A DNA stretch of 64,000 bases, from NCBI GenBank assembly GCA_020847095.1, contig JADLCR010000007.1:28034-92033 (forward strand). The letters are read 5' to 3'. Both the position numbers and the translations under genes were made by a program. Positions 842-1,234 of this stretch are shown piece by piece (positions within the stretch are counted from its first letter, which is position 1; each line of letters begins with the position of its first letter). Under the pieces are notes generated by a model. The model ran no database searches. It was not told where the DNA came from and saw only the letters and a program-made list of their open reading frames with translations. Origin of the DNA: Oligoflexia bacterium (GTDB lineage Bacteria > Bdellovibrionota > Bdellovibrionia > JABDDW01).

Positions 842-964
842 CAAACCTTCAGAAATGCCCCAGATGCGAGAAGCCGAGGACGCGACGAGCGAGGTGTATT
901 TGGGTTATACATTGAGCGAGGAGCAACGAGGCGACGAAGCAGATGGGGCATTTCTGAAGGTTTG
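842..964. repeat. 123-bp element bounded by 21-bp perfect inverted repeats
   Basis: caaaccttcagaaatgcccca (842-862) is the exact reverse complement of tggggcatttctgaaggtttg (944-964); a shorter inner palindrome (gtgtat...atacat) lies near the centre. Confidence 0.85.
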
Positions 965-1108: not shown

Positions 1109-1234
1109 ATTTTCGCGGGAGAGCCGCGAGCCAGACGCGAAGCCGATCCCGAAAACAAGGAGCATATAAATCATATGTGACGAAGTTTGAGGGAGGGGCG
1201 ACAAAGTATGACGACGCGGATCTCCCGCGAAAAT
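1109..1234. repeat. 126-bp palindromic element abutting the CCA end of tRNA-Pro
   Basis: attttcgcgggagagccgcg (1109-1128) pairs with cgcggatctcccgcgaaaat (1215-1234) at 19 of 20 positions; inner palindrome catat-aaatc-atatg. Confidence 0.75.

Follow-up and report, generated by a model that had tools for sequence, protein, structure and literature searches.

A palindrome beside a tRNA-Pro gene of an Oligoflexia bacterium belongs to a dispersed family of gene-end hairpins that may spread as single-stranded DNA

Results

Two stable hairpins lie in tRNA-tail cassettes beside a tRNA-Pro gene

The window analyzed here is a stretch of 64,000 nucleotides from the genome of an Oligoflexia bacterium (contig JADLCR010000007.1 of assembly GCA_020847095.1), in which an intact tRNA-Pro(GGG) gene occupies positions 1310-1234 of the minus strand. 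Its CCA end abuts a palindrome, hairpin A (1109-1234, plus strand; arms 1109-1128 and 1215-1234), and farther on lies hairpin B (842-964, plus strand), which is of the same design but unrelated in sequence. Hairpin B measures 123 bp and had been singled out in a sequence-only reading of the window; as that reading had it, perfect 21-bp inverted repeats (842-862 and 944-964) enclose 81 bp, an inner GTGTAT...ATACAT palindrome is present, and the element is a single base (965) away from TGG, the CCA of a minus-strand tRNA tail. The GA-rich strand of hairpin B is the plus strand; inside the outer arms it carries a ladder of tandem G.A mismatches and a TA-rich tip, and the stem shows one-nucleotide asymmetries. 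RNA folding, which the same reading had proposed as a check, revealed a very stable plus strand (-65.8 kcal/mol, z -11.25, with 0 of 200 shuffles equally stable) and a weaker minus strand (z -8.6). Local folding of both strands across the 64 kb identified hairpins B and A as clear stability outliers (-80.9 and -76.0 with flanks); among the matches listed, the next-best single hairpin reached -54.8, and only these two contained at least two strict tandem G.A internal loops. Rfam searches of the window and of 11 tRNA loci returned nothing but tRNA at the gathering score.

Each hairpin stands at the head of a minus-strand cassette of about 270 bp, in which a body of small stem-loops comes next and a copied 3' tail of tRNA-Pro closes the unit. 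Cassette A (986-1233) is closed by a copy that runs from the T-loop to the CCA (965-985), and cassette B (690-964) by a degenerate one (669-689). The earlier reading, which placed hairpin B "between tRNA tails", had overlooked hairpin A and the intact tRNA-Pro(GGG) gene; both tails are copies of the tail of that gene, and the one at 669-689 is worn, with no more than 15 of 20 nt retained. Read along the minus strand, the window has tRNA-Pro(GGG), then cassette A, then cassette B, while on contig C100 of the same genome tRNA-Pro(CGG) is followed by B and then A, both with intact tails; the copies there are 97.6% (A) and 96.0% (B) identical to those of the window, and outside the array and upstream of the tRNA the two loci are unrelated (45%). 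The A-B and B-A orders would be explained by recombination at the tails, through which cassettes may spread between tRNA genes that have the same tail. Alternatively, unequal crossing-over of an old A-B-A array could have produced both orders instead of mobility; recombination at the 20-nt tails and unequal exchange within a longer array would each fit the swap.

The rtT repeats of E. coli tyrT are 178 bp long, carry the 3' end of tRNA-Tyr and form tandem units downstream of the tRNA. Our cassettes are of this type, being tandem units 3' of a tRNA that each end in a copy of the upstream tRNA's tail. They differ from rtT in that many tRNA isotypes and genera are involved, the multi-stem bodies are conserved, some units carry the hairpins described here, and the same two units stand in swapped order at two tRNA genes.

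Hairpin B belongs to a family with a conserved core and free arms

The palindrome at 842-964 is one copy of a widespread family of hairpins, to which we refer as gene-end hairpins. A covariance model of the family (R2) was built from five copies of the window's own genome, and its match counts are lower bounds. Hairpin B scored an E-value of 1.2e-32 against this model, which was built partly from the hairpin B copy, and hairpin A, a copy not used in building it, was matched at 1111-1232 with an E-value of 3e-9. The element is neither single nor confined to this genome, contrary to the outcome that the sequence-only reading had named as refuting it, a single copy with no counterpart in related genomes: R2 occurs in at least 37 of the 99 genomes of the class and in at least 17 of 54 genera, with the highest count, at least 31 copies in a fuller search, in genome G018. 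The family spans about 100-125 nt, its members falling in two sizes of about 103 and 125 nt. A hairpin of Bdellovibrio sp. BIN15 (L140) is nearly identical to one (L127) of genome G050, which is why we take its genus, g10, which belongs to the same class as the window genome, to be Bdellovibrio.

The conserved core reads CGAGGCG...GGCGTRC...CAACGAAG, and the arms are free in sequence. As a DNA pattern, the core matched more than 114 stretches, most of which fold as a single long hairpin, where a handful would be expected by chance; the matches come from Desulfocapsa and other Desulfobulbales, Rokubacteria, Acidobacteria, Bryobacterales, Syntrophobacterales, Eisenbacteria, Sporomusa malonica and others. 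Viral contigs gave 15 pattern matches, mostly due to chance as judged by folding, although one of them (L262) is likely a real hairpin. In the open-licence literature on tyrT/rtT repeats, Bdellovibrio repeats and replichore-oriented palindromes we found nothing on such hairpins, and the family seems to be undescribed so far.

Dispersed bacterial palindromes are usually put down to RAYT transposases or to remnants of insertion sequences. The sequence-only reading had likened hairpin B to a non-autonomous mobile element of the MITE kind, and this is borne out in part: there are many scattered copies, close relatives differ by gains and losses, and the cassettes stand in swapped order at two tRNA-Pro genes. 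The classical form of the claim, a MITE descended from an insertion sequence that is bounded by terminal inverted repeats, draws on the size, the perfect terminal repeats and the lack of coding capacity, since the copies are non-coding and within 70-300 bp. However, the arms are complementary within a copy and different between copies, the best conserved part of the hairpin is its middle rather than its ends, no associated transposase was found, and the target-site duplications for which a search had been proposed did not appear, as flanking direct repeats were no longer than at control positions. The absence of conserved ends largely refutes the classical MITE, to which we give very little chance. 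Although the gene-end hairpins resemble bacterial MITEs (PMC3733652) and ERIC-type palindromes in their size of 70-300 bp, their long imperfect palindrome and their non-coding, intergenic nature, they are set apart by covarying arms, a tandem G.A ladder on one strand, the lack of target duplication and their occurrence in many phyla.

A second possibility is a REPIN-like element moved by a RAYT (Y1 HUH) transposase. REP, REPIN and BIME sequences associated with RAYTs are likewise dispersed, non-coding, palindromic, mostly located 3' of genes and sometimes paired (PMC3733652; PMC3116915; PMC6006769), and our hairpins are dispersed, intergenic and in part arranged in tandem pairs; moreover, RAYT-like genes are present in 80 of the 99 relatives. 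Yet RAYT-type transposases are absent from the hairpin-rich genomes G018, G013 and G093, so that the 31 copies of G018 coexist with no Y1_Tnp match, and among about two dozen RAYT loci scanned, a hairpin lies near a single one (in G040), on one side alone. The arms lack the conservation expected of a transposase site, and the gene-end hairpins further depart from REP-type elements in conserving the core rather than the ends, in contacting the stop codon or CCA exactly, and in having an orientation locked to replication. We consider a RAYT origin improbable. In the window copy, inspected by eye, neither edge of hairpin B shows the GTAG or GTGG tetranucleotide that marks the foot of REPIN hairpins. 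In G018 (L292-L295), the paired hairpins stand in tandem 10-14 bp apart, and their arm sequences are common to the members of a pair and not to different loci.

The arms covary, with compensatory changes at nearly all stem pairs. In the cells of the alignment, the GA-rich strand shows G.T 79 times against A.C 21 times and G.A 47 times against T.C once; this mismatch bias indicates that the fold of the GA strand is what selection keeps. Hairpin B is at most a candidate for the large structured RNA that had also been suggested: the fold of one strand is conserved, but that strand runs antisense to the gene which the hairpin abuts.

Hairpins contact gene 3' ends with a fixed orientation

Genes were delimited as mechanically called open reading frames, and orthologous copies common to congeners are non-independent, so that the following counts overstate the number of events. 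Among relatives of the class, the stop codon of an opposite-strand gene fell between -14 and +8 bp relative to one given edge in 16 of 31 hairpins. In an independent cross-phylum set, a stop codon lay within -15 to +9 of that edge in 28 of 60 cases, as against 5 of 47 for the other edge. Three closed genomes contributed 40 copies, of which 37 face an opposite-strand gene and 28 touch its end (-11 to +8 bp), most commonly 3 nt after the stop codon (+3), while the strand of the gene beyond the other edge is random (22/18). At tRNA loci, it is this same edge that touches the CCA. In the own genome, viewed as stretches around matches plus spaced samples, hairpins abut the CCA of two Pro, the Arg(TCG), Arg(ACG), Cys and Met tRNAs, and the GA-rich strand is in every case the one antisense to the tRNA. 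Gene-end hairpins thus sit 0-5 nt past the stop codon, or directly past the CCA, of an opposite-strand gene.

The orientation of the hairpins agreed with the replichore in 103 of 105 cases from six genomes, where origin and terminus were checked by GC skew in G018 (origin near coordinate 1, terminus near 1.6 Mb) and the origin was assumed to lie at coordinate 1 in the other five. All 29 listed copies of G018 follow the replichore, whereas its genes do so in merely 62% and 46%; genome G087 is an exception to the rule, with 9 of 12 at best. The GC skew of the GA strand was negative in 19 of 21 regions from five other genera, the own genome included (G000, G039, G005, G033 and G035), and it is -0.067 in the window. 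Taken together, the orientation counts and the skew identify the GA strand as the leading-strand template, which it nearly always is in the Bdellovibrio-like relatives. In 8-kb loci of other phyla, local GC skew carried no information on orientation (63 of 110), as codon-position skew there follows the gene strand.

Sites of the attC type are also in contact with gene ends, and an integron recombination site would be of similar size, an imperfect palindrome abutting stop codons. In sedentary chromosomal integrons, the attC bottom strands lie on the leading-strand template and inversion raises excision (PMC11023631); our hairpins share the structured palindrome, the contact with the gene 3' end and a folding strand that lies antisense to the gene and occupies the leading-strand template. 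Nevertheless, the attC cores R'' (RYYYAAC) and R' (GTTRRRY) were found at the ends of 0 of 39 hairpins, the long perfect outer stem (21 bp) and the conserved inner core are unlike attC, and the copies are dispersed singly, which leaves an attC-like site hardly any chance.

Presence of the hairpin varies among orthologous gene ends

Comparison of orthologous gene ends among congeners, at two genes, showed the hairpin gained, decayed and lost. Two of the 24 congeners that share the first gene end have the hairpin there; in a genome whose protein is 100% identical, all that is left at the site is the short stem GCGATC-GGAA-GATCGC. At the second gene, also compared in 24 congeners, two genomes have an intact hairpin, two a worn one and the remainder none, and the five genomes of that lineage have a shortened protein end in common; this pattern is consistent with a single insertion that later decayed or was lost. 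Among 24 congeners compared past the end of a 767-aa gene (L302-L326), several without the hairpin hold other short perfect palindromes between the stop codon and the terminator, some of which may be relics left after deletion of the core. In G050, the hairpin stands between the stop codon and an intact terminator, and a role as terminator was rejected there.

These observations bear on the idea that the hairpin is a functional element maintained at gene ends, for instance for RNA 3'-end protection, as an antisense RNA or for the relief of replication-transcription conflict, with its orientation set by selection. The strong covariation of arms whose sequence is free, the exact position past stop codons and CCA and the strict polarity all speak for such an element. 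On the other hand, its presence varies even between gene ends with a 100% identical protein, no terminator is replaced in G050, and the strand whose fold selection preserves is absent from the mRNA of the abutting gene. Given this, we regard maintenance for a function as unlikely.

A second structured family adjoins many tRNA genes

In the own genome, tRNA genes for Gly, Arg, His, Met, Ser and Leu are also followed, at a distance of 150-310 bp, by copies of their own tails; at these loci a terminator hairpin mostly replaces the GA hairpin, and a structured body follows. Among the matches listed, R1, a covariance model for one type of body, occurs in 12 of the 99 relatives and, across the phylum, in 47 of 291 genomes. 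R1 elements (L041, L049, L064, L062, L060, L058 and L066-L094) make up a second structured family, which is phylum-wide and reaches a maximum of 10 copies in one 1.5-Mb genome. Each element measures about 150 nt and is delimited by a copy of the 3' tail of its upstream tRNA. They adjoin many tRNA isotypes, and some form exact 200-bp tandem repeats. Both sides had changed at 37 of 38 predicted pairs in 37 aligned copies, in an alignment that was fitted to the model and hence favors the structure. The first stem of R1 pairs with the tail copy, which explains why its 5' strand varies among tRNAs. At the R1-bearing tRNA loci, no Rfam family but tRNA reached the gathering score.

Discussion

We herein describe a hairpin family that keeps its fold without keeping the sequence of its ends and that obeys strict rules of position (the gene 3' end) and orientation (replication) with no apparent enzyme. 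Our preferred reading, which we hold at slightly better than an even chance, is that the palindrome at 842-964 is a copy of a dispersed, non-coding, MITE-like family of gene-end hairpins that spreads as folded single-stranded DNA. From the one-strand fold and its polarity we infer that such DNA may enter at the replication fork, in a fixed polarity and near gene 3' ends, possibly by means of a putative recombinase or transposase. Alternatively, hairpins could enter more freely, and those whose well-folding strand came to lie on the lagging-strand template would then be removed. In the own genome, the copies found lie at tRNA ends, inside cassettes composed of a hairpin, a stem-loop body and a copy of that tRNA's 3' tail. 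The testable question raised by these rules is what recognizes a gene end and the direction of the fork at once.

More tentatively, and with the chances somewhat against it, we speculate that the gene-end hairpins represent a new class of mobile hairpin DNA, present in many phyla, that enters the fork single-stranded in one polarity and lands exactly at gene 3' ends without a known transposase, and that the Bdellovibrio group also carries it in coding-free tRNA-tail cassettes, themselves a second undescribed structured family that shuffles between tRNA genes. With the cassettes, the hairpins would be joined by a phylum-wide system of shuffling at tRNA genes that is free of coding sequence.

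Several further arrangements were seen at tRNA tails. The repeat GTATCCAGGATACGGTTAACGGTATCCCGGATAC occurs immediately 3' of tRNA-Glu, tRNA-His and tRNA-Ala(GGC) in the own genome (L035, L046 and L053). Downstream of tRNA-Arg(ACG), the right half of a hairpin of the tRNA-Arg(TCG) type comes after a GA hairpin (L036, 1-175), as though one hairpin had taken the place of another or inserted into it, and beyond the GA hairpin of a tRNA-Met the tail is found in a full inverted copy, CCA included (L051, 1577-1725). Finally, on contig C45 of G000 (L091 and L095, 2997-4438), a tyrosine integrase gene stands just before a tandem pair of R1-type elements that carries the tail of tRNA-Val(CAC) with no tRNA adjoining; this is probably an element integrated at a tRNA tail.
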